Shown piece after piece: positions 1 to 64,000 of a stretch of 64,000 bases of DNA. The position numbers and the translations under genes were made by a program. This DNA is from Porpolomopsis calyptriformis (lineage: Eukaryota; Basidiomycota; Agaricomycetes; Agaricales; Hygrophoraceae). The stretch covers positions 124,001-188,000 of the forward strand of contig OX621163.1 of assembly GCA_951640195.1 (NCBI GenBank). Direction: 5' to 3'. Positions within the stretch are counted from its first letter, which is position 1; every line of letters begins with the position of its first letter. The notes below the pieces were generated by a model, which was given only the letters and a program-made list of their open reading frames with translations, did no database searches and was not told the origin of the DNA.

Positions 1-1212
1 TGGAAGGATGAAGGCATGCCTGCACCCTCTCTGGACGGTGAGTGTAATGAGATATTTATTCACGCTTCGATTTTAATTTTAATTGACACGCAGAGTGGGA
101 AAGGGCTTTAAAAACCCCCAGTGTCCAGCTTTATCTGCCCAGGTGGCTAGAAATTTCAAAAGACCACCTAGGCTTCCCAGAGAAAAAGACAAGACTTTAC
201 GCCTGGCAATTCCATGTGTTTTTGCGAGCATGCCCAAGCAGTACTATTGCAGCTGGTAAGACATTGCGTTTTCTCTGCTTGTTGAAGACTAACTATTTGG
301 TGTAAAAGAGGCAAACAAACCATTGAAATTTGTCGACACCCCGATCTATGCCTTTTTCTCCAAGGAAGAGCGTTCCACGATGCCTTGGATACGTCTGCTT
401 GCAGACCCATCCTTGGTATGCCCACGCTCCACCTCCCTCGTTGACCACAAAGCTCTACAAAAGCTTAACCCAGGCGCCGAATTGGATGACTCTATCCTAG
501 GCTCATACATCGATCTCTGTCGGGCTCAGAATAAGGATAAAGAAGTAAAACTGATATTGACATATTTCTGGCCTCAGGTATCAAACCTAGACCACAAGGA
601 TTATGGTGGCGCAACAAGGTTGCTCTCTGCAGAGTTGGTAAGCCCTTTTCCCAAACGTTTCCTTCCTTCCATCGATCTGACAGGTTACCAAGAATGGCCA
701 AAAGGTCAAACGTGGATGGTATGCAGCTGCTTTGTCCTCCATCAACGAGACGTTGGAAACCTTGAAGTCCCTTTATATCCCCGTAAACCAAAACCAAAAT
801 CACTGGCTGCTGCTGAGGATGAACTTCACGGATCGACGCTGGGAGTTCTATGATAGTATGACTGCATGCGGAAATGCGAAGACCCGGGCAGGCATTATTA
901 AAGTGAGATTTTCAAGCCACAGAGTTCCTGATTAAATGCTGACAGGTGTCGAAAAAGGCTGTCAGCGATTATCTCACCACTGAGGTGAATTATAATCTCT
1001 CTGGGTGGAATTGCGAAACAGATATGTCTGTGCCGCAACAAAAAGGGTCCACAGATTGCGGGGTGTATACCTGTCAATATCTCAAGTGGCTGGTCAACGG
1101 TATGGCTATACCTTCAGTTTTGGAAGAGGCTGATGTTGCTGATTTTCGGAATATGATGATCATGGAGCTGGTTTCTGGGAAGCTTAGGATTGGCGATCGC
1201 AAGGAATCTTAA
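1..1212 (+). CDS. Ulp1/C48-family SUMO-type cysteine protease, copy A (5' end cut by window)
   Basis: Ulp1-type (C48) peptidases process or remove SUMO-like modifiers. The spliced reading frame shows the family's catalytic signature in order: His in NHWLLL (about 800-820), Asp in EFYDSM (about 845-857), Gln in VPQQ and Cys in STDCGVYTC (about 1030-1070). All four residues are present. Visible introns start at GTGAGT (about 40), GTAAGC (about 637-682) and GTGAGA (about 903-945). The stop is TAA at 1210-1212. The first exon lies partly before the window; copy B gives the full start. The AT-hook gene converges on it, ending 134 bp away. Ulp1 proteases are common cargo of KDZ and other large basidiomycete DNA transposons (family knowledge), so this may be element cargo rather than a housekeeping gene. 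Confidence 0.85.
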
Positions 1213-1346
1213 TATACACTCACTGTACTATTCACCTGGTTTTTGTCTGAAGATGGGGTAGCTTTATTAGCTGTAATAGCATTCAGCATTCGTTCAGCAT
1301 TCGTTCATTCAGCCATTCTATTCATTTGTGCATCGCAACCTTGTCT

Positions 1347-3377
1347 TCATTTCATCATTTCCTCAACATACTTATGAAAGTTGTGCATGGCACCTTTGGC
1401 AATGAGGGCGTGTATGCCTTTGAACGTTCTCTTCATGAAAACCAACTCGTCGTTGTCCTCAAACATAGTGAAATTTGCCAAGTCTTGTCGCTTTTTCCAC
1501 TCCATCACCAGATTCTTGATCTAGTCAGAAAAATGGATGGATACAATACCCCCATATTCGACAGAAAGACATACCATGTCTACATCAAAGTGTGACAAAT
1601 CGACCCATATGCCTTTCTTGTCGTATCCTTTCGTTGCATCCGATAGATCAAGGAGGTGGGTTGCGAGGTCATCTGCATTACCGCTGAGTGGCTGAAGGAG
1701 CAATTTCACCCAACGTGGGATGGGTTCTGGTTCTAGCTTATCGTGACCATCATCCATGACCTAGAAGAAAAAGGATGGCTACCGTCACCATCCATCTGGA
1801 CTTGTACTCCGAATGACTCGAATGCAAGCCTGATACCCACCAGAGTGGTGTCTGTAGCGCGCCCCTTCCCCTTCGTATCCTAGGAGACATACATATAAGC
1901 ATACACGAGGCACATGATGGGGAAAATACTATACCCTTTTCCTTTTCTCAACCTCTATTTCTAGATCCAGACCTACAAGCAGGCTTTCGGATAGATTTCG
2001 ATTTCGATTTTTCTGGACGAATTCTTGGATAAATCGCCATTGCTTCTGACTAGGTATGAAGAAGATAAGACCCACCTGCTGAGGGTGATTCACAGATGGT
2101 ATAGCTGAGGAGGGTATACGCCTTGCCAATGAGGGCTGCTTAGGGCGTCTTACCTGTACAAATCATTCAAATACAAACATAAAACTACAAACAAACCTGG
2201 AAGTCCTTGCCAGGAGAAGCAGGTAGTGACTTTGCTGAGACGCCTGCTTCTGCTTCTGGTTTTGTATTCGCTTGAATTCTCTGTGTATGGTGAATATGAC
2301 GCCATTGAAAAATAACATAGTTGGTACCTTTCTCATGGCCTTTTTTCTGGGGACATCACCCCCCGTTAATGCAGGGAGGGTCTGAAAGAAATCCATAGGG
2401 CAAGATGCAACCCTCTCTCCACTCCTCAGAATCCGTGCTTTGGGGAAATCATTAGATAATTCAACATGCTTGTCCTTGCGTGGGCGTCCTCGCTTCCTTT
2501 TTGGAGCTCATGAAATTAATTGAATGATAAGTACTTAACAAGCTATCGAATTGACATCAGGATCACACACCTTCACCTTCACCCTCACCTTGATCGTTAT
2601 CATCTTGTTCATATTCGTGTTCGTGTTCATACCCAGGTCCAAGTTCAAGCTCAGGTACACGCTCAAGTTCCACGGAGGAGATCGCGACAGCCTCCAAACG
2701 ATTGGTGAACCCAAATAAGATGCAGTCTGCTTCGAAACCGTCAAGCCAGGTGGTGCAATTCGATCGGTCACTGAAAGGATCAACGGATTTTAGGACTTGG
2801 GGAAGCCAGTAGAATTCTTTGCTCTGCTTCCAGGATAAAAGGTCTGGGTATACAAGCATTTATTACTCAAGCCTAGCCTTGAAAATATCGATATCTTACC
2901 ATACCACCAGTGTTGTCTGGAAGAATAATGGCTTCTAAGCTCGGCTTCGAATGCTTTGAGTTTTTTGGGCTGGTGGGCCTTCCCTAGCTCCAGTCGAACA
3001 CAGAACCGATGAACGACATCAGGAATCCAAAGACTGCCAGACGCAGGCTTTTCTCTTTGCGCTTCCTTTATGATATACGTCCTAAGCATGTCATACCATA
3101 CCATCAACTTTCCAAGATGACTCCCTCCATCCTCTTTTTGAAATTGCAGCTGAAGCTGGCACAAGTCAATGACGGTGAATATTGGCCTCCACTTTATCGG
3201 GAGAGAACAAATATGTTGGGCCGCTTGGACTGACATGAGTCCATCCTGGGTGGTGTTTTTGATATAGCATCGTGAGGATAGCGGAACCGTGGCCTGCGGG
3301 ACCTTTCCAACAGGCCACCAGCTAGTTTCGAGAGCATGCAAATCAGTCTCCATGGATTTTATCAAGAGATTTAGCAA
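1347..3377 (-). CDS. AT-hook protein of unknown family, copy A
   Basis: A multi-exon gene read right to left. Exon 1 (3377 to about 2900) joins exon 2 (about 2849-2574) across a GTAAGA intron, keeping W-Y-D-L-L-S-W in frame. Exon 2 ends in an acidic E/G/H/Y-rich tract. The next exon begins with a clear AT-hook, KRKRGRPRKDK (plus-strand about 2470-2513), a motif that binds the minor groove of AT-rich DNA. The last intron (GTATGT...CTGACTAG, about 1575-1522) removes an apparent stop and lets the frame run to TGA at 1349-1347. I do not recognise the remaining domains. The first in-frame ATG is at 3353, and the true start may be further upstream. The AT-hook suggests a nuclear, DNA-binding role (inference). 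Confidence 0.6.
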
Positions 3378-3584
3378 GATGCACTAAAGTGATCGGGGCA
3401 AGTATGGTTTGTTTGTCGAGATTTATCAGCTACGCCTGCTATACTTCACTGCATATACCGTATTGAGTCGATGGAGCTGTAGATTGAGCTAAAAAGTAGA
3501 GGACAACTGTGGAATAACACTGCGCCATTCGATCCTGATCCTGCCACCTTCTTCTACCTGCCCTTCTCCCTTGCGTTCACTTAG

Positions 3585-3910
3585 AGGCCTGGCTGAAATA
3601 AATGCATTCCGTTTGAAGCAAAGGTTGGAGAGCAGTCTAACAGAGTTTCAGTGTACTCCTCTGAACCGAACCGCTCTGTTCCGAACAGAGTGTACTTGGT
3701 TAAAAGGTGGTGATACATTGTGGTGCAGTGAAGCTAAGAGGCAAGAACCAGGCCGACCGAAGGTGAATGGTAACATAGCGCTGTGTAGCACTGACTAACT
3801 GCATGACGCATGCAGCGTTCGCTGACAGGACATGAACCTACCGCGGTCTGAGAATTAAGGGGTGAGAAAACCAAGCCAATCGACAGTGAGCGTGGGCAGA
3901 GCTCGTTTGC
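3585..3910 (-). repeat. Dispersed repeat related to the 39.6-42.06 kb array
   Basis: On the minus strand this matches the right edge of the big tandem array (about 41640-42055). Both carry the 17-bp near-perfect palindrome CTCTGTTCCGAACAGAG (3673-3689 here), a stretch ending in TTTCAGCC, and a segment resembling one array monomer (TTGGCTTGGTTTTCTC, about 3865-3885). It sits just upstream of the F-box promoter. No transposase is present, so it would be a non-autonomous or satellite-like repeat. Confidence 0.65.
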
Positions 3911-3940
3911 CACAAGCTACAATAATCGTGGCATCCACAC

Positions 3941-3947
3941 TATAAAA
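3941..3947 (+). promoter_or_regulatory. TATA box of F-box gene
   Basis: TATAAAA lies 65 bp before the ATG at 4012, with a C/T-rich leader between. The same is seen in copy B at 55957-55963. Confidence 0.5.
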
Positions 3948-4011
3948 TCCCCTCATTTTTTCTCGACCCCAATTCTCCACTTTCTCCCTAAGCCACCACC
4001 CACCATCCATC

Positions 4012-4755
4012 ATGATCCTCCTTCCCCTAGAGCTGTGGTTCAAAATAATCTCCCACATTCAGGACAGGCCCAGGGATCTACTCGCACTATCCCTAGTGAA
4101 TAGGGATGTTTCCTCCGCTGTGTTGCCCTCCCTGGCCCAATATGCCATCGTCAATCCATTGCCACAGCCGCGACACCCTATCCACCTTGTTGAGTTCACC
4201 GCCATTTCGGAGTGGGGCGGCGATTTGGTTCAGGAACATCTGGAGATGGCCGGGAGTAACCTGTGGGTCGCCAGGTTGGGATTCGATGCCTCCGGATGTC
4301 AGTGTTTTAGTTTATTCCTATATGTCTGGGCTTTATCACTAATCCCGCATAAAGATGACTGCCTAGAACTCGAGCGGTTAAGCTTTTCCCGCAACTTATA
4401 CCTCAGGGAAGTTACCCTCTCTGGATTACGACTAAAAATGCCGGGTCACTACGACACAATCGATATCTCGAGAATATTTGCTGGATGTCTGATGAGTGCT
4501 TTGACCAAGTTCACTCTGGATCTTACACGGGCCAACCTGGATAACTGCGTCAACGTCAATTGGGCCCTCCTCGATGCATATCTTTCCTCGAGACCTTCCC
4601 TTCAATCTGTGCACATTTTAGGCCCTCTGTTTGTGATAGAGGTCAACGATATCATGCCACTGATTGGCACCAAGGGCATCCTTAGGGTGACATCCATGCC
4701 AACCCTGCCGGAACCATCGGTACCATGGCCATCCCTATCGTGGGTGGGTATGTAA
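4012..4755 (+). CDS. F-box-like protein, copy A, forward arm
   Basis: A 247-residue single-exon frame beginning M-I-L-L-P-L-E-L-W-F-K-I-I, followed by ..DLLALSLVNRD. This is the L-P-x-E-[LI] start and L..L..VN.. pattern of fungal F-box proteins, which bring substrates to SCF ubiquitin ligases through Skp1. The rest has leucine-rich, LRR-like spacing (LREVTLSGLRL; SLQSVHILGPL) but no clear repeat count. Its paralogue at 5532-6335 faces it tail to tail as an inverted duplication. The start is supported by the TATA box 65 bp upstream. Substrate unknown. Confidence 0.7.
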   Translation: MILLPLELWFKIISHIQDRPRDLLALSLVNRDVSSAVLPSLAQYAIVNPLPQPRHPIHLVEFTAISEWGGDLVQEHLEMAGSNLWVARLGFDASGCQCFSLFLYVWALSLIPHKDDCLELERLSFSRNLYLREVTLSGLRLKMPGHYDTIDISRIFAGCLMSALTKFTLDLTRANLDNCVNVNWALLDAYLSSRPSLQSVHILGPLFVIEVNDIMPLIGTKGILRVTSMPTLPEPSVPWPSLSWVGM

Positions 4756-5149
4756 GCGAGGCAGGAAGAAGTTTTGAAGAAGGAAGGGTAGTGGAAGGGG
4801 GCAGGATACGGGTTGAATGGGAATGTGGTGACGTTATCCTGTAGCCATCTGTTGCAATGGATCGCGTATGATGACCCTGCCTGATACTGATGAGTCTGGA
4901 TTGGAAGATATCGTCCTCTTGAGACGACCCAAGCCCAAGGCGGAGAACACAGAGAGAGATCGTTGTCATTGTTGCTGCATCTGTGTCTACTTTTTATATG
5001 TATACGACATCGAAGGGGTCTAACCTACAAAGCGAAGCGCTTTGTGATCCTTTGATAGCACGATATTACTGAGAAGAAAGATTGTTGGATTGCGCAGCGG
5101 CTGCAAGTAATATCGAACTGTTGCTTTTGTCACCCACGCAGATTCGCCC

Positions 5150-5324
5150 TGCCATTTCCCATCGGAGAGATCCCTAAAGCTAAATATGTAGCAACTCGTG
5201 CTGCAAAGGAAGCCTTATGGCTCCGCACCTTTATTGGTGAAGTATTTGGCCCAATCCCGTCTCAACTATCTTTTCAAACAACCAATCGGCTATCGTGCTA
5301 TCAAAGGATCACAAAGCCCTGACC
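5150..5324 (+). mobile_element. Ty1/copia RNase H fragment, copy A
   Basis: The plus-strand frame reads AKYVATRAAKEALWLRTFIG and then GEVFGPI, followed, with a gap, by TNRLSCYQRITK. This resembles the end of copia RNase H (E-x-E-Y-x-A..A..E..WLR). Only this scrap remains, in the centre of the F-box inverted repeat, and the last part has shifted frame. Confidence 0.7.
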
Positions 5325-5531
5325 CCTTTGATGTCGCATACATATAAAAAGTAGACACAGATGCAAATGTATGTAGTAACAATGACAACGATCTCTCTCT
5401 GTGTTCTCTGACTTCGGCTTGGGTAGCCTCAAGAGGACAATATCTTCCACTTCGGACTGGTCAGTATCAGCCAGGGTCATAACGGATCCATTTCAACAGA
5501 TTGTTACAGGATAACATTGCCCCGTTCCTAT

Positions 5532-6335
5532 TCAACCTGTATCCTGCCCCGTTCCACTCCCCTTCCTTCTTCGAAACTTCCTCCTACGTATCCGCCCAGA
5601 TATAGATGGCCATGGTACCAATGGTACCGATGGTTCTGGCAAAGTTGGCCTGAACGTGACATCAAGGATGCCCTTCGCGGTGACCAGTGGCATGATATCG
5701 CTGACCTCCATCACAGACAGAGGGCCTAAAATGTGCACAGATTGAAGGGAAGGTCTCGAGGAAAGATATGCGTCGAGGAGGGCCCAATTGACTTTGATGC
5801 AGTTATCCCAGTTGGCCCGTGTAAGATCGAGAGTGAACTTGGTCAAATCTTCCATAGAACATCCAGCAAATATCCTCGAGATATCGATTAGGTTGACGTT
5901 ACCCGGCTGTCTTAGTCGTAATCCAGAGAGGGTAACTTCCCTGAGCCACACGTTGTGGAAAAAGTTTAGGTGCGTGAGTTCGACGCAGTCATCTTCATGC
6001 GGGGTTAGCGATAAAACCCAGACACATAGGAATAACCTGAAACACTGATAACCGGATGTATTGAATCCCAACCTGGTGACCCTCAGGTTGCTCCCAGCCC
6101 TCTTCAAATTTTGCTGAACCCAACCGCCGTGCCAATTCCTGATGGAGGTGAATTCAAGGAAACGAATCGGGTGTTGCGGCTTTGGCATTGGATCGACAAG
6201 CATGTATCGGGCCAGGAATGGAAACACAACGGAGGCAAAGTTCCTGTTTACTAGTGCCAGTGCGAGCAGATCTTGGGACGAGTTCTGAATGTAGGGGATA
6301 ATTTTGAGCCACAGATCTATGGGAAGGGAAATCAT
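5532..6335 (-). CDS. F-box-like protein, copy A, reverse arm
   Basis: 267 residues from the ATG at 6335, chosen because it aligns with the ATG of the forward-arm paralogue (M-I-S-L-P-I-D-L-W-L-K-I-I). The reading frame is open further upstream but has no family match there. It has the same layout as 4012-4755: an N-terminal F-box-like segment, then LRR-like leucine spacing. A TATATAG sequence lies about 35-45 bp upstream. The C-terminus differs: it ends in a basic R-R-R-K-F-R-R-R-K stretch. Substrate unknown. Confidence 0.68.
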   Translation of the reverse strand: MISLPIDLWLKIIPYIQNSSQDLLALALVNRNFASVVFPFLARYMLVDPMPKPQHPIRFLEFTSIRNWHGGWVQQNLKRAGSNLRVTRLGFNTSGYQCFRLFLCVWVLSLTPHEDDCVELTHLNFFHNVWLREVTLSGLRLRQPGNVNLIDISRIFAGCSMEDLTKFTLDLTRANWDNCIKVNWALLDAYLSSRPSLQSVHILGPLSVMEVSDIMPLVTAKGILDVTFRPTLPEPSVPLVPWPSISGRIRRRKFRRRKGSGTGQDTG

Positions 6336-6450
6336 GATGGATGATGGTGGTTTTGGGAGACTTTCGGCTGCTCTATATACTAAGTCGACCTCGACGCTTT
6401 GACTCACTCTCAACTAAAATCGATTATTCACGTGGCTAGGGTTGCTTAAA

Positions 6451-7016
6451 ATGCCACAGTTTGACAGGGTGAACCTGAACGGTCCTCTACTACGACCATC
6501 TCCAGCAGTCTTCTTCATGACTGTGTCCGCGTCGCCTCACTTGGCCACTAGATCTCAATCTCAGAGGGTTACGACCTCAGACCAGATGGAGGGTGAGGGA
6601 AACCCCATGGGACCAGGATCTGCGGGGAATCAAAGTCACGCTGCCCAACATCACCAGGTGAGCTTGCTCTTTTCCTTTTTTTCAGGTTGACAGAGGGGAC
6701 GTGTTAGGCGAATGAGATGAACATCCCCAAAGCTGTCAGCCCGAGAAGAAGAAAGCAATGGAAGGCCAAATTTTTGTCGGATGAGGAAACTGAAGAAACA
6801 CTACCGACCGTCTATGTCAATTCAAAGAACACGAAGATGACAACCATAGCAGAGCCGTCGGTAAACACCCAGTCGACAACGGATGGCGATGGCAAGATAG
6901 CCGAAGAGATCCAGCAAACAATCCACTGTGGGATCGTCACTGCGCCAACCCAGCCGGGGACTGATAATGACCCCATTGGACCACAGTCGACGGAGAGCCA
7001 TGGGATTGATGGTTAG
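6451..7016 (+). CDS. Small basic hypothetical protein, copy A
   Basis: Two exons: 6451-6657, ending HAAQHHQ before GTGAGC, and 6717-7016, beginning MNIPKAVSPRRRKQWK. The join is in phase 0 and gives about 168 residues. It is rich in S/T/Q/G with one basic patch (SPRRRKQWKAK) that could be a nuclear signal (inference). No domain recognised. The frame is preserved in both copies, a mild sign that it is real. Confidence 0.45.
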
Positions 7017-8254
7017 GGGTCAGAGAGATCAAAACGATTTCAAACGGTTACGGCGAGAGGATGGAAATGCTGAGGTTGGGATCGAACGGTAAGGCTTTCA
7101 TTAAAAAATCTGAATATCAGGCCCCTGTGTTGAATAATATGGTTATCAAGATTCGGCACGCAATCTCTCGGATGCAGTAGAGAAGCATGGATGGTGACCC
7201 TTGCCATCCCTCCCGTCTGTAGATTCCACCTTGTTCTCCCTTAGCCAACTTCCTCTTTACCTTCTTCTCAGGGTGGCCCTCGTACCCATTCTCACTCCCG
7301 CACTCTCTTTTCCTACATTTCATCTGCTCACGCACGTCGGATATTCCCTATGAATTGAATTTTCATTATGACCTTTTGTGTTGGTATCCAGATGACCACT
7401 CACCAAGGTGCAAACCATTCACCGCTTCTCCAACATCATCAAGGATGGCAGTCACGCTCCATTACAAAGTGAGAAATAAGTGATTCTGAGTCGTCTGAAG
7501 AAGCACAAAGATGTCTTTCAGCCGTACTTTAATCTTATGTTGCTATACTAGGTGTACCCGAGGCCCTTTACCTCGGCATGTCGTAGATTGATGGCATTTA
7601 AAGTTTTCTTAGCAGGCAAGTATTGCGTTCCATAATACAGGCTATCGATAAGGTTGAAGACATTAGCAAACCTTTGCCAAAATGAGACTGTTGGAAGGAA
7701 GGGAAGGGAAATCAACGAAAAACAGTAACTAAATCACTCAATCACCCCCTCACATCTTTTCAGTGATGAAAATTTCTAGTTACTGAAAAACAATACCACA
7801 GAGTAGGTTTGTAGGTGCGGATCATTAGCAAATTGGAAAACTTACATTTAGCTAAGGCGGCAGCTGACTAGTCTACATTAAATTGACTTCACCATGCCCA
7901 AAGTACATCTAATCATTGCATGATCACCACGAATCAGTGCCAGTTGATCTGTTTATCAGTAAATTTCAGTTACGAATGCTGTAATACAATGAGAAAGTCG
8001 CTACTATTCAAACGAGAAAAAGAGACCTTCGGTGATAAAATTTCATCGATTTTAGTTCCAATGGAGATGACCTCAACATCTCACTTGATTTTATGGTTCA
8101 TCCTTCTTTTATAATTACACTCACGATTGTCCAAACTGCCTCTTTTGAAGTGCGCAGCCAAGCATAAGTTATGCTGGGCTCGATTTGAACACCTACCAAA
8201 TATAGGATTAACAAACATTCACAAGTTCCAAAAGCACTACCGAATCCGAATCCA
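7017..8254. other. Intergenic stretch, copy A
   Basis: No convincing gene. It holds a pyrimidine-rich segment (about 7195-7330), the dispersed repeat at 7551-7640, and AT-rich DNA from 7650 to the WAVR gene. The open frame at 7920-8114 has no family match. Confidence 0.5.
7551..7640. repeat. Dispersed repeat of about 90 bp (copy 1 of 3)
   Basis: Begins GTGTACCCGAGGCCCTTTAC and includes GGCATTTAAAGTTTTCTTAG. It recurs at 59567-59656 (inside copy B) and at about 44585-44675 beside the TET gene, where it has a short extra segment (ACAGGTTG). No ORF. It may be the end of a mobile element. Confidence 0.7.
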
Positions 8255-9689
8255 ATGGCAAATCTCGATTTTATTCTCAACGATACCCATAGATGGCAGG
8301 ATGGCATCTCAGAGGTTCAACCAAGCAGCTGGCTGTGTCTATTTGAATTGGAGAATTCAAAGAACTACCTGTTCAAACCGATGGGTTCCGATACAAAGAT
8401 ACGCTGGAAGTATTTTCCATTGGAATTCATTGCCTTTAATATCATCACGAATCAGTCTCGCCACTTTTCCTTGCCATTCATGCTGTGCCAACAGGTTGCG
8501 TTTCTTGATCTTCAATATTGGGCTAGCCTGGTTTCTGGAGATAAATCGATGTCGCGCTATTTAGAGCTGCTAAGGGATGACCTCCTTGAAGAATTCTTCG
8601 CAATGGAACCCCCTTCCAGCTTTAATGAACAACCTTGGAGTACCCGGCCTTGGGCCGTTCGAACGATGCACTCCTTTGGCCACTCGAAGCCTGACCGTGA
8701 CGCTTATCTCACCACATGCAGAGAACAGGGCTGGGAGAGTTATATGCATGGCGACCCATTGGAATATCATACGTGATGAATCGCTCCCAAAGTCCTGATG
8801 GTTTATACTACGTTCTATAATAGGATGGACAGATATTTTCAACAAATATAAAAAACAAAATACCTGGATGAATTCGGGTCATCATATTATAGACAGCCTT
8901 GCAAGCGCACTGAACAAAGCGAGGGAACATATCTCTGTGGGCCCTTCAAACGTTTTACTCTCTGCAGCCGACCTTCTCGACAAAGGCGACACCTGTTTGG
9001 CACAACAAGCTGGTGTGTGAATGGGATCCATCGCTCTCATGCTACATCAGATATCCTGACTAAACGATCAGCCACAGTCAAGATCCCTGAGTTCGATATA
9101 AGTATCGACCCAACACATGTGGATAAATCACCATTGGATGTCGCATTGGCACATTCTACCTCAAAAGCTGGTACGTGAATGGGATCTATGGGTCTCATGC
9201 CACACCAGATATCAAATATCTAGACTGATGATGATGATCAGCCACAGAGGAGATTTCTTCTTCATTCGCAGGCGAAATCGAACAGAGGCTTAGGGCTCCG
9301 TTGCCAACATGCATCGTGCAGCCAAACAAGTTAGTTCATTCAGCCGCTCGATAACTTAGCATCCTTTGACTACTGTATAGCAGACAATCATCTACACGTG
9401 TGGCCATGGTACGAACCTCGGAACCTCCAAGTAGGCAGGCTACTCAACGTGAATTTATTTATTGCGTATTGATTTATTAACTTATTCTTATTCTTATTTC
9501 TCTCCCACTTCAACAGCACAGGTTGAACGAGGGAAAAACTACAAACAAAACAAGTGGAAGCGGAATAAAAAGAAGAAAATGAAGGCAGCTCTATTACGAG
9601 AGACAGAGGCTGAGTTAGCTGCGCGCAACCCACCCAGCCAACCAATGCGACCCAACCATTCAACCACACGGGTGAACCGAGGGAGATAA
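8255..9689 (+). CDS. WAVR-domain protein with basic C-terminus, copy A (splice donor damaged)
   Basis: Exon 1 (8255 to about 8768) encodes about 170 residues ending in W-A-V-R-T-M-H-S-F-G-H-S, then C-R-E-Q-G-W and G-D-P-L-E-Y. The same block ends the first exon of the JmjC gene and of the gene at 13762-14274. Later exons: 8893-9012, 9078-9170, 9248-9329, then about 9380-9446 and about 9521-9689. They give a Ser/Ala-rich middle and a very basic tail (K-W-K-R-N-K-K-K-K-M-K). Domain unknown to me. In copy B the exon 1 donor is GTACGT; here it is ATACGT (8769 G to A), which would block that splice and end the protein four bases later. Confidence 0.6.
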
Positions 9690-10022
9690 TAGCTTCAAGG
9701 GTGTAGCGCATCTGCTGGGCCAAACACTAACCGCAAGTACAACGTGGGGCTCTATCTCCCTAAGGGATAGGGAGTCCAGAAGCTGCCACCTTTCTGTATA
9801 TGTAAATAAAGCAGATTGTGTTCGGCATATCTACTAGGTTACATGAGGTTGTAATTGGTTTCATCGCAGGCAAGGTAATGTATGTATTCATGTATGTTTT
9901 TTTTTTTTTTTCATGTGAGACATGAGCATCAAAGTCCAACTCAATTGTATCGATTGTAAAACTGTAACAAAGTACAGGCATATGATAGCAGCACATCAAT
10001 AGATAATGAATAGAAACTGTCC

Positions 10023-15959: not shown

Positions 15960-16031
15960 AATAGCTGAGTTTTTAGCAGTAACACGGTGAAGGATAGTAG
16001 GTATTAGATAAGCTAGAAGAATGGTAAGGTA

Positions 16032-51212: not shown

Positions 51213-51269
51213 TGCAGCTAATCGTGTATGAAAAGTCTGTTGTAACGGCGCTAAGGAAAAAGAGACTCA

Positions 51270-51450: not shown

Positions 51451-51620
51451 AATCGACAGGCAAACGAAGGCTGCAAGAAGTGAAGTAAAGTGAACTGGTG
51501 GCTAGTCCTATAAGGATTTCTAGGAAACCCCGAAGCCTCACATAGAGTCGCTTTGTGAGGTGAGTGTTTATGTGTGGGTTCCGTTAGTGTACGCGAATCA
51601 ACTTAAGCTGGAATTAAGGA

Positions 51621-53228: not shown

Positions 53229-53362
53229 TATACACTCACTGTACTATTCACCTGGTTTTTGTCTGAAGATGGGGTAGCTTTATTAGCTGTAATAGCATTC
53301 AGCATTCGTTCAGCATTCGTTCATTCAGCCATTCTATTCATTTGTGCATCGCAACCTTGTCT

Positions 53363-55393
53363 TCATTTCATCATTTCCTCAACATACTTATGAAAGTTGT
53401 GCATGGCACCTTTGGCAATGAGGGCGTGTATGCCTTTGAACGTTCTCTTCATGAAAACCAACTCGTCGTTGTCCTCAAACATAGTGAAATTTGCCAAGTC
53501 TTGTCGCTTTTTCCACTCCATCACCAGATTCTTGATCTAGTCAGAAAAATGGATGGATGCAATACCCCCATATTCGACAGAAAGACATACCATGTCTACA
53601 TCAAAGTGTGACAAATCGACCCATATGCCTTTCTTGTCGTATCCTTTCGTTGCATCCGATAGATCAAGGAGGTGGGTTGCGAGGTCATCTGCATTACCGC
53701 TGAGTGGCTGAAGGAGCAATTTCACCCAACGTGGGATGGGTTCTGGTTCTAGCTTATCGTGACCATCATCCATGACCTAGAAGAAAAAGGATGGCTACCG
53801 TCACCATCCATCTGGACTTGTACTCCGAATGACTCGAATGCAAGCCTGATACCCACCAGAGTGGTGTCTGTAGCGCGCCCCTTCCCCTTCGTATCCTAGG
53901 AGACATACATATAAGCATACACGAGGCACATGATGGGGAAAATACTATACCCTTTTCCTTTTCTCAACCTCTATTTCTGGATCCAGACCTACAAGCAGGC
54001 TTTCGGATAGATTTCGATTTCGATTTTTCTGGACGAATTCTTGGATAAATCGCCATTGCTTCTGACTAGGTATGAAGAAGATAAGACCCACCTGCTGAGG
54101 GTGATTCACAGATGGTATAGCTGAGGAGGGTATACGCCTTGCCAATGAGGGCTGCTTAGGGCGTCTTACCTGTACAAATCATTCAAATACAAACATAAAA
54201 CTACAAACAAACCTGGAAGTCCTTGCCAGGAGAAGCAGGTAGTGACTTTGCTGAGACGCCTGCTTCTGCTTCTGGTTTTGTATTCGCTTGAATTCTCTGT
54301 GTATGGTGAATATGACGCCATTGAAAAATAACATAGTCGGTACCTTTCTCATGGCCTTTTTTCTGGGGACATCACCCCCCGTTAATGCAGGGAGGGTCTG
54401 AAAGAAATCCATAGGGCAAGATGCAACCCTCTCTCCACTCCTCAGAATCCGTGCTTTGGGGAAATCATTAGATAATTCAACATGCTTGTCCTTGCGTGGG
54501 CGTCCTCGCTTCCTTTTTGGAGCTCATGAAATTAATTGAATGATAAGTACTTAACAAGCTATCGAATTGACATCAGGATCACACACCTTCACCTTCACCC
54601 TCACCTTGATCGTTATCATCTTGTTCATATTCGTGTTCGTGTTCATACCCAGGTCCAAGTTCAAGCTCAGGTACACGCTCAAGTTCCACGGAGGAGATCG
54701 CGACAGCCTCCAAACGATTGGTGAACCCAAATAAGATGCAGTCTGCTTCGAAACCGTCAAGCCAGGTGGTGCAATTCGATCGGTCACTGAAAGGATCAAC
54801 GGATTTTAGGACTTGGGGAAGCCAGTAGAATTCTTTGCTCTGCTTCCAGGATAAAAGGTCTGGGTATACAAGCATTTATTACTCAAGCCTAGCCTTGAAA
54901 ATATCGATATCTTACCATACCACCAGTGTTGTCTGGAAGAATAATGGCTTCTAAGCTCGGCTTCGAATGCTTTGAGTTTTTTGGGCTGGTGGGCCTTCCC
55001 TAGCTCCAGTCGAACACAGAACCGATGAACGACATCAGGAATCCAAAGACTGCCAGACGCAGGCTTTTCTCTTTGCGCTTCCTTTATGATATACGTCCTA
55101 AGCATGTCATACCATACCATCAACTTTCCAAGATGACTCCCTCCATCCTCTTTTTGAAATTGCAGCTGAAGCTGGCACAAGTCAATGACGGTGAATATTG
55201 GCCTCCACTTTATCGGGAGAGAACAAATATGTTGGGCCGCTTGGACTGACATGAGTCCATCCTGGGTGGTGTTTTTGATATAGCATCGTGAGGATAGCGG
55301 AACCGTGGCCTGCGGGACCTTTCCAACAGGCCACCAGCTAGTTTCGAGAGCATGCAAATCAGTCTCCATGGATTTTATCAAGAGATTTAGCAA
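53363..55393 (-). CDS. AT-hook protein of unknown family, copy B
   Basis: Same exon plan as 1347-3377. The AT-hook K-R-G-R-P-R-K-D lies at about 54486-54529. Four transitions separate the copies, at 53559, 53979 and 54338 among others. Only 53559 falls in an intron I am sure of. Confidence 0.6.
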
Positions 55394-55600
55394 GATGCAC
55401 TAAAGTGATCGGGGCAAGTATGGTTTGTTTGTCGAGATTTATCAGCTACGCCTGCTATACTTCACTGCATATACCGTATTGAGTCGATGGAGCTGTAGAT
55501 TGAGCTAAAAAGTAGAGGACAACTGTGGAATAACACTGCGCCATTCGATCCTGATCCTGCCACCTTCTTCTACCTGCCCTTCTCCCTTGCGTTCACTTAG

Positions 55601-55926
55601 AGGCCTGGCTGAAATAAATGCATTCCGTTTGAAGCAAAGGTTGGAGAGCAGTCTAACAGAGTTTCAGTGTACTCCTCTGAACCGAACCGCTCTGTTCCGA
55701 ACAGAGTGTACTTGGTTAAAAGGTGGTGATACATTGTGGTGCAGTGAAGCTAAGAGGCAAGAACCAGGCCGACCGAAGGTGAATGGTAACATAGCGCTGT
55801 GTAGCACTGACTAACTGCATGACGCATGCAGCGTTCGCTGACAGGACATGAACCTACCGCGGTCTGAGAATTAAGGGGCGAGAAAACCAAGCCAATCGAC
55901 AGTGAGCGTGGGCAGAGCTCGTTTGC
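55601..55926 (-). repeat. Dispersed repeat with 17-bp palindrome, copy B
   Basis: Equivalent of 3585-3910. CTCTGTTCCGAACAGAG at 55689-55705. Confidence 0.65.
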
Positions 55927-56027
55927 CACAAGCCACAATAATCGTGGCATCCACACTATAAAATCCCCTCATTTTTTCTCGACCCCAATTCTCCACTTTC
56001 TCCCTAAGCCACCACCCACCATCCATC

Positions 56028-56771
56028 ATGATCCTCCTTCCCCTAGAGCTGTGGTTCAAAATAATCTCCCACATTCAGGACAGGCCCAGGGATCTACTCG
56101 CACTATCCCTAGTGAATAGGGATGTTTCCTCCGCTGTGTTGCCCTCCCTGGCCCAATATGCCATCGTCAATCCATTGCCACAGCCGCGACACCCTATCCA
56201 CCTTGTTGAGTTCACCGCCATTTCGGAGTGGGGCGGCGATTTGGTTCAGGAACATCTGGAGATGGCCGGGAGTAACCTGTGGGTCGCCAGGTTGGGATTC
56301 GATGCCTCCGGATGTCAGTGTTTTAGTTTATTCCTATATGTCTGGGCTTTATCACTAATCCCGCATAAAGATGACTGCCTAGAACTCGAGCGGTTAAGCT
56401 TTTCCCGCAACTTATACCTCAGGGAAGTTACCCTCTCTGGATTACGACTAAAAATGCCGGGTCACTACGACACAATCGATATCTCGAGAATATTTGCTGG
56501 ATGTCTGATGAGTGCTTTGACCAAGTTCACTCTGGATCTTACACGGGCCAACCTGGATAACTGCGTCAACGTCAATTGGGCCCTCCTCGACGCATATCTT
56601 TCCTCGAGACCTTCCCTTCAATCTGTGCACATTTTAGGCCCTCTGTTTGTGATAGAGGTCAACGATATCATGCCACTGATTGGCACCAAGGGCATCCTTA
56701 GGGTGACATCCATGCCAACCCTGCCGGAACCATCGGTACCATGGCCATCCCTATCGTGGGTGGGTATGTAA
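56028..56771 (+). CDS. F-box-like protein, copy B, forward arm
   Basis: Protein identical to copy A; the only change I found (4575/56591, T/C) is silent. The TATA box at 55957-55963 is retained. Confidence 0.7.
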   Translation: MILLPLELWFKIISHIQDRPRDLLALSLVNRDVSSAVLPSLAQYAIVNPLPQPRHPIHLVEFTAISEWGGDLVQEHLEMAGSNLWVARLGFDASGCQCFSLFLYVWALSLIPHKDDCLELERLSFSRNLYLREVTLSGLRLKMPGHYDTIDISRIFAGCLMSALTKFTLDLTRANLDNCVNVNWALLDAYLSSRPSLQSVHILGPLFVIEVNDIMPLIGTKGILRVTSMPTLPEPSVPWPSLSWVGM

Positions 56772-57165
56772 GCGAGGCAGGAAGAAGTTTTGAAGAAGGA
56801 AGGGTAGTGGAAGGGGGCAGGATACGGGTTGAATGGGAATGTGGTGACGTTATCCTGTAGCCATCTGTTGCAATGGATCGCGTATGATGACCCTGCCTGA
56901 TACTGATGAGTCTGGATTGGAAGATATCGTCCTCTTGAGACGACCCAAGCCCAAGGCGGAGAACACAGAGAGAGATCGTTGTCATTGTTGCTGCATCTGT
57001 GTCTACTTTTTATATGTATACGACATCGAAGGGGTCTAACCTACAAAGCGAAGCGCTTTGTGATCCTTTGATAGCACGATATTACTGAGAAGAAAGATTG
57101 TTGGATTGCGCAGCGGCTGCAAGTAATATCGAACTGTTGCTTTTGTCACCCACGCAGATTCGCCC

Positions 57166-57340
57166 TGCCATTTCCCATCGGAGAGATCCCTAAAGCTAAA
57201 TATGTAGCAACTCGTGCTGCAAAGGAAGCCTTATGGCTCCGCACCTTTATTGGTGAAGTATTTGGCCCAATCCCGTCTCAACTATCTTTTCAAACAACCA
57301 ATCGGCTATCGTGCTATCAAAGGATCACAAAGCCCTGACC
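57166..57340 (+). mobile_element. Ty1/copia RNase H fragment, copy B
   Basis: Same scrap as 5150-5324, centred between the inverted F-box genes at 56028-57091 and 57311-58351. Confidence 0.7.
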
Positions 57341-57547
57341 CCTTTGATGTCGCATACATATAAAAAGTAGACACAGATGCAAATGTATGTAGTAACAATG
57401 ACAACGATCTCTCTCTGTGTTCTCTGACTTCGGCTTGGGTAGTCTCAAGAGGACAATATCTTCCACTTCGGACTGGTCAGTATCAGCCAGGGTCATAACG
57501 GATCCATTTCAACAGATTGTTACAGGATAACATTGCCCCGTTCCTAT

Positions 57548-58351
57548 TCAACCTGTATCCTGCCCCGTTCCACTCCCCTTCCTTCTTCGAAACTTCCTCC
57601 TACGTATCCGCCCAGATATAGATGGCCATGGTACCAATGGTACCGATGGTTCCGGCAAAGTTGGCCTGAACGTGACATCAAGGATGCCCTTCGCGGTGAC
57701 CAGTGGCATGATATCGCTGACCTCCATCACAGACAGAGGGCCTAAAATGTGCACAGATTGAAGGGAAGGTCTCGAGGAAAGATATGCGTCGAGGAGGGCC
57801 CAATTGACTTTGATGCAGTTATCCCAGTTGGCCCGTGTAAGATCGAGAGTGAACTTGGTCAAATCTTCCATAGAACATCCAGCAAATATCCTCGAGATAT
57901 CGATTAGGTTGACGTTACCCGGCCGTCTTAGTCGTAATCCAGAGAGGGTAACTTCCCTGAGCCACACGTTGTGGAAAAAGTTTAGGTGCGTGAGTTCGAC
58001 GCAGTCATCTTCATGCGGGGTTAGCGATAAAACCCAGACACATAGGAATAACCTGAAACACTGACAACCGGACGTATTGAATCCCAACCTGGTGACCCTC
58101 AGGTTGCTCCCAGCCCTCTTCAAATTTTGCTGAACCCAACCGCCGTGCCAATTCCTGATGGAGGTGAATTCAAGGAAACGAATCGGGTGTTGCGGCTTTG
58201 GCATTGGATCGACAAGCATGTATCGGGCCAGGAATGGAAACACAACGGAGGCAAAGTTCCTGTTTACTAGTGCCAGTGCGAGCAGATCTTGGGACGAGTT
58301 CTGAATGTAGGGGATAATTTTGAGCCACAGATCTATGGGAAGGGAAATCAT
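57548..58351 (-). CDS. F-box-like protein, copy B, reverse arm
   Basis: Frame intact. It differs from copy A by transitions at 57653, 57924, 58065 and 58073. Two alter the protein: Gln to Arg (57924) and Tyr to Cys (58065). Confidence 0.68.
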   Translation of the reverse strand: MISLPIDLWLKIIPYIQNSSQDLLALALVNRNFASVVFPFLARYMLVDPMPKPQHPIRFLEFTSIRNWHGGWVQQNLKRAGSNLRVTRLGFNTSGCQCFRLFLCVWVLSLTPHEDDCVELTHLNFFHNVWLREVTLSGLRLRRPGNVNLIDISRIFAGCSMEDLTKFTLDLTRANWDNCIKVNWALLDAYLSSRPSLQSVHILGPLSVMEVSDIMPLVTAKGILDVTFRPTLPEPSVPLVPWPSISGRIRRRKFRRRKGSGTGQDTG

Positions 58352-58466
58352 GATGGATGATGGTGGTTTTGGGAGACTTTCGGCTGCTCTATATACTAAG
58401 TCGACCTCGACGCTTTGACTCACTCTCAACTAAAATCGATTATTCACGTGGCTAGGGTCGCTTAAA

Positions 58467-59032
58467 ATGCCACAGTTTGACAGGGTGAACCTGAACGGTC
58501 CTCTACTACGACCATCTCCAGCAGTCTTCTTCATGACTGTGTCCGCGTCGCCTCACTTGGCCACTAGATCTCAATCTCAGAGGGTTACGACCTCAGACCA
58601 GATGGAGGGTGAGGGAAACCCCATGGGACCAGGATCTGCGGGGAATCAAAGTCACGCTGCCCAACATCACCAGGTGAGCTTGCTCTTTTCCTTTTTTTCA
58701 GGTTGACAGAGGGGACGTGTTAGGCGAATGAGATGAACATCCCCAAAGCTGTCAGCCCGAGAAGAAGAAAGCAATGGAAGGCCAAATTTTTGTCGGATGA
58801 GGAAACTGAAGAAACACTACCGACCGTCTATGTCAATTCAAAGAACACGAAGATGACAACCATAGCAGAGCCGTCGGTAAACACCCAGTCGACAATGGAT
58901 GGCGATGGCAAGATAGCCGAAGAGATCCAGCAAACAATCCACTGTGGGATCGTCACTGCGCCAACCCAGCCGGGGACTGATAATGACCCCATTGGACCAC
59001 AGTCGACGGAGAGCCATGGGATTGATGGTTAG
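58467..59032 (+). CDS. Small basic hypothetical protein, copy B
   Basis: Same two-exon plan as 6451-7016. One CpG transition (6880/58896) changes Thr to Met. Confidence 0.45.
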
Positions 59033-60270
59033 GGGTCAGAGAGATCAAAACGATTTCAAACGGTTACGGCGAGAGGATGGAAATGCTGAGGTTGGGATCG
59101 AACGGTAAGGCTTTCATTAAAAAATCTGAATATCAGGCCCCTGTGTTGAATAATATGGTTATCAAGATTCGGCACGCAATCTCTCAGATGCAGTAGAGAA
59201 GCATGGATGGTGACCCTTGCCATCCCTCCCGTCTGTAGATTCCACCTTGTTCTCCCTTAGCCAACTTCCTCTTTACCTTCTTCTCAGGGTGGCCCTCGTA
59301 CCCATTCTCACTCCCGCACTCTCTTTTCCTACATTTCATCTGCTCACGCACGTCGGATATTCCCTATGAATTGAATTTTCATTATGACCTTTTGTGTTGG
59401 TATCCAGATGACCACTCACCAAGGTGCAAACCATTCACCGCTTCTCCAACATCATCAAGGATGGCAGTCACGCTCCATTACAAAGTGAGAAATAAGTGAT
59501 TCTGAGTCGTCTGAAGAAGCACAAAGATGTCTTTCAGCCGTACTTTAATCTTATGTTGCTATACTAGGTGTACCCGAGGCCCTTTACCTTGGCATGTCGT
59601 AGATTGACGGCATTTAAAGTTTTCTTAGCAGGCAAGTATTGCGTTCCATAATACAGGCTATCGATAAGGTTGAAGACATTAGCAAACCTTTGCCAAAATG
59701 AGACTGTTGGAAGGAAGGGAAGGGAAATCAACGAAAAACAGTAACTAAATCACTCAATCACCCCCTCACATCTTTTCAGTGATGAAAATTTCTAGTTACT
59801 GAAAAACAATACCACAGAGTAGGTTTGTAGGTGCGGATCATTAGCAAATTGGAAAACTTACATTTAGCTAAGGCGGCAGCTGACTAGTCTACATTAAATT
59901 GACTTCACCATGCCCAAAGTACATCTAATCATTGCATGATCACCACGAATCAGTGCCAGTTGATCTGTTTATCAGTAAATTTCAGTTACGAATGCTGTAA
60001 TACAATGAGAAAGTCGCTACTATTCAAACGAGAAAAAGAGACCTTCGGTGATAAAATTTCATCGATTTTAGTTCCAATGGAGATGACCTCAACATCTCAC
60101 TTGATTTTATGGTTCATCCTTCTTTTATAATTACACTCACGATTGTCCAAACTGCCTCTTTTGAAGTGCGCAGCCAAGCATAAGTTATGCTGGGCTCGAT
60201 TTGAACACCTACCAAATATAGGATTAACAAACATTCACAAGTTCCGAAAGCACTACCGAATCCGAATCCA
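59033..60270. other. Intergenic stretch, copy B
   Basis: As 7017-8254. Holds the 90-bp dispersed repeat at 59567-59656 and no gene that I can support. Confidence 0.5.
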
Positions 60271-61705
60271 ATGGCAGATCTCGATTTTATTCTCAACGAT
60301 ACCCATAGATGGCAGGATGGCATCTCAGAGGTTCAACCAAGCAGCTGGCTGTGTCTATTTGAATTGGAGAATTCAAAGAACTACCTGTTCAAACCGATGG
60401 GTTCCGACACAAAGATACGCTGGAAGTATTTTCCATTGGAATTCATTGCCTTTAATATCATCACGAATCAGTCTCGCCACTTTTCCTTGCCATTCATGCT
60501 GTGCCAACAGGTTGCGTTTCTTGATCTTCAATATTGGGCTAGCCTGGTTTCTGGAGATAAATCGATGTCGCGCTATTTAGAGCTGCTAAGGGATGACCTC
60601 CTTGAAGAATTCTTCGCAATGGAACCCCCTTCCAGCTTTAATGAACAACCTTGGAGTACCCGGCCTTGGGCCGTTCGAACGATGCACTCCTTTGGCCACT
60701 CAAAGCCTGACCGTGACGCTTATCTCACCACATGCAGAGAACAGGGCTGGGAGAGTTATATGCATGGCGACCCATTGGAATATCGTACGTGATGAATCGC
60801 TCCCAAAGTCCTGATGGTTTATACTACGTTCTATAATAGGATGGACAGATATTTTCAACAAATATAAAAAACAAAATACCTGGATGAATTCGGGTCATCG
60901 TATTATAGACAGCCTTGCAAGCGCACTGAACAAAGCGAGGGAACATATCTCTGTGGGCCCTTCAAACGTTTTACTCTCTGCAGCCGACCTTCTCGACAAA
61001 GGCGACACCTGTTTGGCACAACAAGCTGGTGTGTGAATGGGATCCATCGCTCTCATGCTACATCAGATATCCTGACTAAACGATCAGCCACAGTCAAGAT
61101 CCCTGAGTTCGATATAAGTATCGACCCAACACATGTGGATAAATCACCATTGGATGTCGCATTGGCACATTCTACCTCAAAAGCTGGTACGTGAATGGGA
61201 TCTATGGGTCTCATGCCACACCAGATATCAAATATCTAGACTGATGATGATGATCAGCCACAGAGGAGATTTCTTCTTCATTCGCAGGCGAAATCGAACA
61301 GAGGCTTAGGGCTCCATTGCCAACATGCATCGTGCAGCCAAACAAGTTAGTTCATTCAGCCGCTCGATAACTTAGCATCCTTTGACTACTGTATAGCAGA
61401 CAATCATCTACACGTGTGGCCGTGGTACGAACCTCGGAACCTCCAAGTAGGCAGGCTACTCAACGTGAATTTATTTATTGCGTATTGATTTATTAACTTA
61501 TTCTTATTCTTATTTCTCTCCCACTTCAACAGCACAGGTTGAACGAGGGAAAAACTACAAACAAAACAAGTGGAAGCGGAATAAAAAGAAGAAAATGAAG
61601 GCAGCTCTATTACGAGAGACAGAGGCTGAGTTAGCTGCACGCAACCCACCCAGCCAACCGACGCGACCCAACCATTCAACCACACGGGTGAACCGAGGGA
61701 GATAA
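60271..61705 (+). CDS. WAVR-domain protein with basic C-terminus, copy B
   Basis: Same exon plan as 8255-9689. Exon 1 ends at 60784 with an intact GTACGT donor and joins the exon at about 60909 (C|AC-AGC-CTT), which continues L-A-S-A-L-N-K-A-R-E-H. This is therefore the likely functional copy. The N-terminus starts MADLDF instead of MANLDF. Confidence 0.62.
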
Positions 61706-62036
61706 TAGCTTCAAGGGTGTAGCGCATCTGCTGGGCCAAACACTAACCGCAAGTACAACGTGGGGCTCTATCTCCCTAAGGGATAGGGAGTCCAGAAGCT
61801 GCCACCTTTCTGTATATGTAAATAAAGCAGATTGTGTTCGGCATATCTACTAGGTTACATGAGGTTGTAATTGGTTTCATCGCAGGCAAGGTAATGTATG
61901 TATTCATGTATGTTTTTTTTTTTTTCACGTGAGACATGAGCATCAAAGTCCAACTCAATTGTATCGATTGTAAAACTGTAACAAAGTACAGGCATATGAT
62001 AGCAGCACATCAATAGATAATGAATAGAAACTGTCC

Positions 62037-64000
62037 CTATGGCGGTGGAAGAAAAAGTTCGGTGGATAAACATTTTTCTTCACTGAGCGCCATCCAATGC
62101 TCTCCACTGACGAGTACTTCTGACTCCATAGCTGTCAGGCTGATTCCTGCCCTTTCTAGTATCGCCTTGATCTGTTTCTGGGCCTCGTTGATTTCTCCTT
62201 CTTCCTCCTGAAAAAGGACATCCCACTCGGTCATCGGAAGGTCTGGCCTTTTCTGCTCACCCGGCAAAAGGTACTCATTCGATTTGAGAATCATTCTGGC
62301 CAGCGCCAAGAATGGCCGTCGATATATTTCTGGAAAGCTAGCTTTTAAACAAAAATGAGGGGATATCATTCATTCATGTGCTCACTTCGACTTTTGGCGA
62401 CATGTGGAAGCGCTAAAACCATGCGAGAAAGCAACCTTGAGACGTGGTGATTTGCATTTGTTGAAAAATGACCATGCATATGGTCGAAGTCCCGCGATTG
62501 TTCAGTGAGGTGAAGCGTCTCATAGGTATAAAAGTGACCTCCCGAACAATAGCTTGGCGTGGGGGTGTATACGGCATGCCAAATGCCAGGAGGCATAATT
62601 CTGACACATAGAATCAATATATGAGCATGAGTAATCAATTTTTAGAGCGTTAATAATATAAAAACTTACAGAATCTCCCCTGCAGAAAGAAACATCGTGA
62701 AAATCTGAGCATGTTGATTCAGTTGGTGTAGTTGACTGAAGCAAATATCCTTGTGCAGGCTGCGCAACTTGTTCCGGGAGTTGTGACTTTTTGTGTATCT
62801 AGGTCGAATAATGGCCCAAATTTTTATCCCGGCGTGCGCATAGATCCAGGTACACAAGCCGTTAGCATCCTTGTGGGGGAATGTTACGAAGCCAGCATGC
62901 GTCAGCAGGTTCCACTGCATCATTTGCCAGGTGCACATCCGAATAACCTGTGGCCCTGGAAGGACTAGTTCTTGTCGAGTATTCGGCATCTTGTGATGCT
63001 TCGACTTGTCCTTTGGAGGGTGCTTCCAAAACTTCGCGAATGATTCATGTTTTGTGAGCTGGAATGCGAGTGCTTCGTCACTTATTCGACTGTTAAGGTT
63101 ACTTGTTGAAATAAGCCAATGTACAAGCTCTCAGCACTCTTACCATATAATAGAGGGGGCGGCATTTCTCAGTGAAGGGGCATCCAGGATATTTCCACAG
63201 ATGTCTACACCCTCAGATGCCTCGATAAACTCCCCCAGGGAAGAGTGGCTGTGGATGATGCCATCTGACTCCTTCTTGGACCTACCGACTGCACGCAATC
63301 TTGCATCTATACAATATTAAACCACAGTAATCGTAGAGATGGATTTTACGTACCATGCCACTGAACTGGCTGGCTTAATGGACCCCTTGCTGCCTCGATC
63401 TCCTCCTTACAAAACGTCTCCGGACCTTCAAGATGTTGACCCTGTAATATAATGCATCGCTGATTAGCGAGATGGAGTCGCACGGCTTCATCGATGGCAT
63501 GAAGTGGTTGGGAAGGTTCTCTTGGTGGGATAACGACATAGTTAGTTTCATCCAAGTCCCAGTTGTTTATCGAATGGGTTGCAGATGAACCATCAGGTGA
63601 TTTGGCAAGCACCTCAACTAATTTAGCGTCCTTAACAAAGCTTCAGTTAGCTGATCAAGAACGAGCACAAAATGATGGACGGACTGCATTTTGATGGCCC
63701 GGAACGTGAACCCATGGAAGTACGGTTTGCGACCCATTGGCCCATTGAATCGAGGATGCGTCCTGGGGAAAGTTCACTCCCCTCAACGAAGTAAAGTAGT
63801 CGTGCTTATTCTGGGTGAGGGGTGCTGATGTTATGCGTTATCTTCTTCTTCATAAGGATGATGCGATGCGAATAACTTCACATACCAGATATCGTAGCTG
63901 GTTGATGTTTTTTTCGACTCGTGGGTTCTTCATCATCGGACAAAGATCGTTTTTGGGGAAGACTAGCGGCGCTCACTCCTTGGCCCAGTTCATTGGGATG
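62037..64000 (-). CDS. JmjC-domain oxygenase, copy B (5' end beyond window)
   Basis: Matches 10023-11986 of copy A. The JmjC core with P-H-K-D and G-I-W-H-A-V-Y-T-P is complete. The WAVR domain exon would lie at about 64215-64716, outside the window. Small changes include Thr to Met (62694) and Val to Ala (62412). Confidence 0.68.

Follow-up and report, generated by a model that had tools for sequence, protein, structure and literature searches.

C-to-T mutation of repeated DNA with a bias towards CpG is already known in basidiomycetes, including a mushroom, and the array described here, from Porpolomopsis calyptriformis (Agaricales), is a very clean further case. The stretch analysed, hereafter the window, comprises 64,000 nucleotides (contig OX621163.1 of assembly GCA_951640195.1, here C1:124001-188000, in an assembly of 33.5 Mb and 17 contigs) and holds one complete unit, and the start of the next, of a long subtelomeric tandem repeat that carries a TET/JBP-type open reading frame. 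In the Agaricomycete Tricholoma matsutake, CpG-biased C>T changes in repeats have been described whose origin by repeat-induced point mutation (RIP) the authors leave open (PMC6980582); that work counts changes over repeat families by dinucleotide bias, and the present comparison polarises the copies of a single long repeat and finds hardly any transversions, CpA as a second target and a copy-specific load. Rhizoctonia solani AG8, also an Agaricomycete, is reported in PMC4014442 to have CpG-biased C>T changes (a bias of ~40% for CpG) that distinguish its nuclei and affect both genes and repeats; the changes here lie between copies of one repeat. C>T changes are also CpG-biased in Heterobasidion parviporum, with a transition/transversion ratio of 3.28 over all single-nucleotide polymorphisms as given in PMC5870257. 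The TCG-type hypermutation of Pucciniomycotina, as cited in PMC12730594, likewise concerns basidiomycete repeats and a CpG-containing target, yet TCG is the least-hit NCG context in our nine-copy comparison.

Neurospora-type RIP shares with this locus C>T changes in repeats with hardly any other change, copy-dependent loads and a relic stripped of target sites; it differs in that the main target here is CpG, not CpA, and in that the heavily mutated copies lack strand runs. Decay by deamination of methyl-CpG is alike in its CpG transitions, its one-way course and the similarity of the two strands, but transversions appear far rarer here than is usual in such decay, and CpA and other C contexts are raised too.

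A subtelomeric repeat whose copies differ by C-to-T changes

The first-pass annotation of the window, made from the letters alone, treated two 12-kb blocks at its ends as a two-copy duplication. The blocks are indeed duplicates, but they belong to a tandem array: each opens one of two neighbouring units of a ~52-kb repeat (Table 1), which is present in at least 40 copies, most of them near contig ends. Window positions 1-3000, used as a query, give at least 40 matches (the best 40 of 59 candidates), all at 99-100% identity, and positions 9000-12000 also give at least 40 (the best 40 of 66 candidates); together the matches fall on 15 of the 17 contigs, and the unit is seen on C1-C6 and C8-C16. 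On C1, copies of window 1-3000 start at 71989, 124001, 176017, 228600, 280649 and 328179, and we call the units U1 (71989-124000), U2 (the window unit), U3 (176017-228599) and U4 (from 228600). Most copies lie close to a contig end, those at left ends running forward and those at right ends in reverse (judged on contigs other than C3, C12, C14 and C15); C9:1848837, C9:1899445 and C13:1520497 are oriented opposite to this rule, and on C16 (219 kb) every listed copy is reversed. Units are spaced at 52,012-52,583 bp, once at 47,530 on C1, at 29,310 on C5 and at 49,281 on C16, and because the spacings vary, these are tandem arrays of related units that differ in internal length. With units of 29 to 52 kb and at least 40 copies, the repeat may, by a rough estimate, exceed 1 Mb of the genome. 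Among the papers listed, none describes a subtelomeric array of this kind in basidiomycetes, judged by title or abstract start.

Alignment of the two blocks reproduces exactly the count of 38 substitutions, all of them transitions (38/38), that had been made by eye, and adds a single 2-bp deletion in a T run (9897-9898). At 30 of the 38 sites one of the two copies has CpG, again as annotated, and all 15 coordinates named as examples are confirmed; CpG makes up 892 of the 11,986 block positions (observed/expected ratio, o/e, 0.70), and the binomial probability of at least 30 of 38 differences falling there is 4e-27. T or A stands on the left copy at 27 sites and on the right copy at 11. Six other copies serve to polarise the 31 differences found within the first 10 kb: C>T or G>A took place on the left copy in 19 and on the right copy in 6, and the change runs in reverse in 6. 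Read on the strand of the C, the eight remaining differences are CpA (5), CpC (1) and CpT (2); the CpA and CpC contexts had been recognised. The eight are not noise, CpA being a real second target.

From the at least 40 copies we chose two sets: nine for the first 10 kb, namely U1-U4 and a single copy each of C5, C2, C16, C9 and C8, and sixteen for a stretch of 4.5 kb. Low match score was the ground for picking the C8 and C9 copies, and a relic at C2:600 kb, discussed below, was taken because no other long match diverged as far (93%). Extremes of load are therefore over-represented, with the direction of change unaffected. All spectra are of repeat copies, and it is from repeats only that the C>T pattern is known here. 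Among 202 variable sites in the nine copies, 199 are transitions (156 of them at CpG), two are transversions and one has three alleles; at the Heterobasidion parviporum ratio of 3.28, at least 199 transitions in 201 has P = 1e-20. Singletons polarised by majority comprise 71 C>T, 68 G>A, 5 T>C, 1 A>G and 1 C>A, with 110 of the 139 C>T or G>A changes at CpG, and two-allele sites sorted by minor allele give 185 C>T or G>A, 8 T>C, 6 A>G and 2 transversions. The sixteen-copy comparison agrees, with 78 transitions (54 CpG), one transversion and one multi-allelic site. These spectra uphold the view that random sequencing error is not at work, and the check proposed in the first-pass annotation, an alignment with a context table polarised by further copies, yielded no transversions between the blocks and a CpG excess far above expectation.

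Per-site singleton rates fall steeply from CpG (110/760, 0.145) to CpA (22/1446, 0.015), CpC (4/1170, 0.003) and CpT (3/1253, 0.002); the rate of change from A or T to G or C is about 0.001 per site. The CpG rate is thus 42 times that at CpC and 60 times that at CpT, and its excess over CpA fits the earlier remark that classic CpA-directed RIP does not apply; CpA itself exceeds CpC 4.5-fold and CpT 6.3-fold (p = 5e-5 against the two together). Within CpA, CAG (11/355) and CAT (11/394) are hit ~5-fold more often than CAA (2/406) and CAC (2/292; p = 6e-4). Within NCG the order is ACG (56/189, 0.296), CCG (0.204), GCG (0.156) and TCG (41/275, 0.149), with p = 2e-4 for ACG against TCG. A hit on one strand of a CpG seems independent of a hit on the other, since 13 dinucleotides are hit on both strands where 15.8 would be expected, and CpGs are hit about alike in five long open reading frames (66/282) and outside them (90/490; p = 0.09). 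Over whole units with the minisatellites masked, transitions make up 111 of 114 differences from U2 in U1, 103 of 106 in U3 and 76 of 78 in U4. Apparent inter-unit transversions near 24.4 kb and at 40-41 kb were rejected and put down to misregister of the two minisatellites. U1 is a mosaic: of the 114 differences that set it apart from U2, 86 fall in its first 12 kb, and the remainder of the unit is nearly identical to U2.

The block also holds an inverted pair (3983-5065 and 5291-6360; ~1.07 kb, 80% alike). Its arms differ by 119 transitions and 78 transversions and, these arms being old, transversions do therefore build up over longer times.

Unequal loads and a CpG-stripped relic

The number of C/T and G/A sites at which a copy carries T or A varies widely: 18 in U3, 19 in U4, 19 in C2, 22 in C16, 25 in C5, 33 in U2, 63 in U1, 67 in C9 (the copy C9i) and 75 in C8 (C8r). 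Set against C2, the directional load is 67:11 for C8 (p = 6e-11), 59:11 for C9 (p = 5e-9), 56:12 for U1 (p = 6e-8) and 23:9 for U2 (p = 0.02); other pairs are level (C16:C2 9:6, C5:C2 14:8, U3:C2 5:6, C8:C9 64:56, C8:U1 63:52). Copies with a common root are equally old, from which we infer that the rate of conversion differed between lineages. The earlier suggestion that methylated cytosines were deaminated after the duplication thus stands as to one-way, mostly CpG, C>T change, but not as a process of a single, uniform, clock-like rate. Runs of changes on one strand are absent from the heavy copies (C8 p = 0.20, C9 0.77, U1 0.43) and from U2 (0.18), and only C16, with 9 such changes, gives p = 0.026; dispersion of the changes along the 10 kb is 0.7 to 1.4. 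Together these weigh against bursts by a processive enzyme. Among 1485 pairs of sites at which at least two copies have the minor base, 352 are incompatible with one tree, which we read as exchange between copies plus repeat hits. Two C5 copies differ at 3 sites in 6 kb, all C/T or G/A.

A 1.4-kb region around the TET/JBP-type frame has at least 38 matches of 1091 bases or longer (among the best 40 of 97 candidates) at 93-100% identity; it also occurs outside the array, some of the matches being far from contig ends. Two of the dispersed copies were compared in detail, at C2:600 kb and C9:537 kb. The former is a relic with a CpG o/e of 0.10, against 0.79-0.81 in the units, and a broken frame (longest open stretch 103 amino acids, against 250 in other copies). 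Judged at the sites on which U1, U2, U3 and the copy at C9:537 kb are unanimous, the relic has 82 C>T or G>A changes, 4 in reverse and no transversion; in pairwise comparison, transversions number 2 against U2 and 3 against C9:537 kb. Its rates are 56/111 at CpG, 22/184 at CpA, 3/164 at CpC and 1/175 at CpT (CpA against CpC and CpT, p = 1.5e-7), with ACG at 14/21, CCG at 14/23, GCG at 9/26 and TCG at 19/41. CAG and CAT (15/97) against CAA and CAC (7/87) lean the same way as in the nine copies, at a level that is not significant (p = 0.17). The copy at C9:537 kb keeps an intact 250-amino-acid frame and a CpG o/e of 0.74; its differences from the window unit amount to 22 transitions (13 CpG) and 5 transversions. 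The relic is thus an independent, more decayed copy with an equal order of targets, and less mutated lineages diverge more ordinarily. The idea of using the relic to polarise the differences between the window unit and C9:537 kb was dropped, the relic itself being full of C>T.

With CpG lost at 0.145 per site and A or T restored to G or C at ~0.001, hardly any CpG would survive a process of long standing, and the relic shows such an outcome. The low-load lineage may have escaped, or these units may have come under the process only recently; some CpG could also be maintained by selection on coding DNA.

Close to the array, C1:50000-67000 holds a further repeat family that is not CpG-depleted (o/e near 1). 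A 3-kb query from it has 15 listed matches, of which 14, the query's own place included, cover 1865-3000 of its 3000 bases at 99-100% identity, and its use as a single-copy control was rejected, the region being another repeat. Stretches at C1:17000-23000 and C1:34000-42000, partly of tandem repeats, have CpG o/e of 0.02-0.26.

Probable methylation and conversion, and competing explanations

We consider it probable that this repeat has been shaped by methylation of cytosines and their subsequent conversion to T, each copy on its own. Some copies would carry methylation at CpG and, to a lesser degree, at CpA; there methylated C would become T and the change be fixed, affected copies shedding CpG site by site, and copies that are unmethylated or only recently methylated would stay near-intact and seed new copies by exchange and tandem amplification. 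The targeted cytosines would then carry 5-methylcytosine (5mC), load would follow methylation and deamination would be the chemical step, with passive deamination slightly preferred as the mode of conversion. Methylation-dependent decay explains the direction of change, the contexts, the relic and the unequal load, and its support consists of one-way C>T, the order of contexts, the unequal loads, the CpG-stripped relic and matches to methyltransferases. The profile PF00145 has six matches at four loci: one locus on C5 (1043 kb), two on C2 (710-712 kb and 2963-2964 kb) and one on C7 (1696 kb). The C7 locus has a DNMT1-RFD match at a distance of 3.7 kb on the same strand, and we take the C7 matches as a putative single gene. 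In Agaricus bisporus, CpG methylation is described as nearly confined to transposable elements (PMC7473861), and in Marasmius oreades, according to PMC9674265, methylation varies between transposon copies, low-methylation copies of one hAT family looking like the sources of insertions. The order of 5mC at CHH sites (H being A, C or T) given for Zymoseptoria in PMC8016269 resembles the non-CpG order here (CpA, CpC, CpT), and the methyltransferase DIM-2 is said in PMC13297926 to be absent from basidiomycetes.

Several observations weigh against decay by methylation and passive deamination. Loads of 18 to 75 suit passive decay only given methylation that differs between copies. On the singleton count, transitions at CpG are ~1400 times as frequent per site as transversions (a figure that rests on one transversion), and even transitions at CpC and CpT outnumber them ~30-fold on this basis. 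In the human germline the per-site ratio of CpG transitions to transversions is some tens.

The extreme scarcity of transversions would be more easily explained by an active step, as in a RIP-like mutator that recognises repeats, perhaps around meiosis, and drives methyltransferase-linked C to T in some copies, at CpG and then at CpA. Transversions are near absent in both the nine copies and the relic, non-CpG C>T also exceeds them, and the relic's 82 changes without a transversion stand beside the 22 transitions and 5 transversions that separate the window unit from C9:537 kb. The one-sided loads of the C8, C9 and U1 copies against C2 would fit as well, and a block CpG o/e of 0.70, far above the long-run outcome of the spectrum, makes the onset look recent. 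We nevertheless think such a mutator rather unlikely: the three heavy copies have no strand runs, dispersion along the 10 kb is 0.7 to 1.4, the light copies, many in tandem, are little mutated, and the second repeat at C1:50-67 kb retains its CpG together with its 14 long, near-identical matches. A tentative extension, speculative though worth stating, would be that mushroom-type fungi own an active repeat-triggered C-to-T mutator with CpG and then CpA as targets (CAG and CAT above CAA and CAC), run by a methyltransferase of DNMT1 type and not RID, which strikes some copies and spares others that keep amplifying at chromosome ends.

Modified-base calling errors are mostly C/T and G/A, the very type of change seen here, so that base-calling errors at methylated CpG might be suspected of producing the pattern as an artefact of sequencing or assembly. 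This is highly improbable: U3 and U4 set a noise floor of 1 differing site in 10 kb; the minor base occurs in at least two copies at 55 variable sites, 24 of these in exactly U1 and C9, which share in addition a T>G transversion at 6542; and in the relic about every second CpG cytosine is changed and the 250-amino-acid frame is broken. Scarcely credible at all is a failure of uracil repair, with plain cytosine deamination left unrepaired genome-wide, an idea that drew on the lack of any match in the genome to the uracil-DNA glycosylase profile PF03167 (probably a miss of the method) and that was rejected after three ordered pieces of the ung model TIGR00628 turned up at C8:651854-652734 (best E 5.9e-16, none of them reaching the curated cut-off), apparently an exon-split gene, and given that unmethylated deamination does not yield the CpG excess over CpC and CpT reported above.

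An array whose units differ almost only by polarised C>T offers a clean setting in which to compare methylation per copy with load per copy. Should load track methylation, decay is probably passive; should it jump after meiosis, this would be a basidiomycete counterpart of RIP.

The TET/JBP-type frame and other features of the unit

The first-pass annotation had pointed to a TET/JBP enzyme encoded at the same locus. The frame is present in the unit, but it lies outside the 12-kb block, and nothing ties it to the mutation pattern. Its Tet_JBP score is 25.9 bits against a cut-off of 34.9, and it is a divergent member at best. Members of the family bind iron and 2-oxoglutarate through the pattern HxD...H...R, and among 25 sequences H94, D96 and R158 are invariant and H147 nearly so. 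The predicted structure (mean confidence, pLDDT, 77.5) has as its 16 best PDB matches exclusively CcTet and NgTET1 chains (E 2.6e-7 to 2.6e-5), at template modelling (TM) scores of 0.38-0.53 normalised by the query. Named homologues among the best 120 of 278 include Mycena, Marasmius and Trametes, which are mushrooms and their relatives. The frame is repeated in many units and at dispersed places, and the latter suggest that it may be a transposon gene; the borders of a TET-bearing element were not found among the 4 of 215 candidates that were scored. A 250-amino-acid copy of the frame lies at C8:2048623, ~6.5 kb from the heavy C8 copy, and there is therefore no sign of TET protecting neighbouring copies.

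Table 1. Positions of the repeat copies, open frames and minisatellites in the window
Feature	Position	Strand	Remarks
First 12 kb of one tandem unit (left copy)	1..11986	+	99.67% identity to 52017-64000
Complete repeat unit (U2)	1..52016	+	52,016-bp alignment with the upstream unit (U1), 99.77% identity
SIR2-family open frame	14812..15648	-	Pfam SIR2 E 1.3e-23
953-amino-acid open frame	18456..21314	+	No Pfam match; six homologues listed
Minisatellite, ~141-149 bp	23012..24655	.	Masked in whole-unit spectrum (copies can align out of register)
Copia-type gag fragment	27353..27814	-	Pfam Retrotran_gag_2 E 1.2e-18
Tetratricopeptide-repeat open frame	33426..33977	-	Pfam TPR_10 E 3.2e-11
Minisatellite, ~220 bp	39573..41277	.	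Masked in whole-unit spectrum (same ground)
Alpha-kinase open frame	42319..43005	+	Pfam Alpha_kinase E 2.7e-8
TET/JBP-type 2-oxoglutarate-Fe(II) oxygenase open frame, 250 amino acids	44747..45496	-	Pfam Tet_JBP E 6.7e-6, below curated cut-off
First 12 kb of next tandem unit (right copy)	52017..64000	+	Unit runs on past the window

For the protein P0001, comparison with the sequences of solved structures gave chance matches only. A weak F-box-like match lies in 5535-6413 (E 0.0026, under the cut-off).

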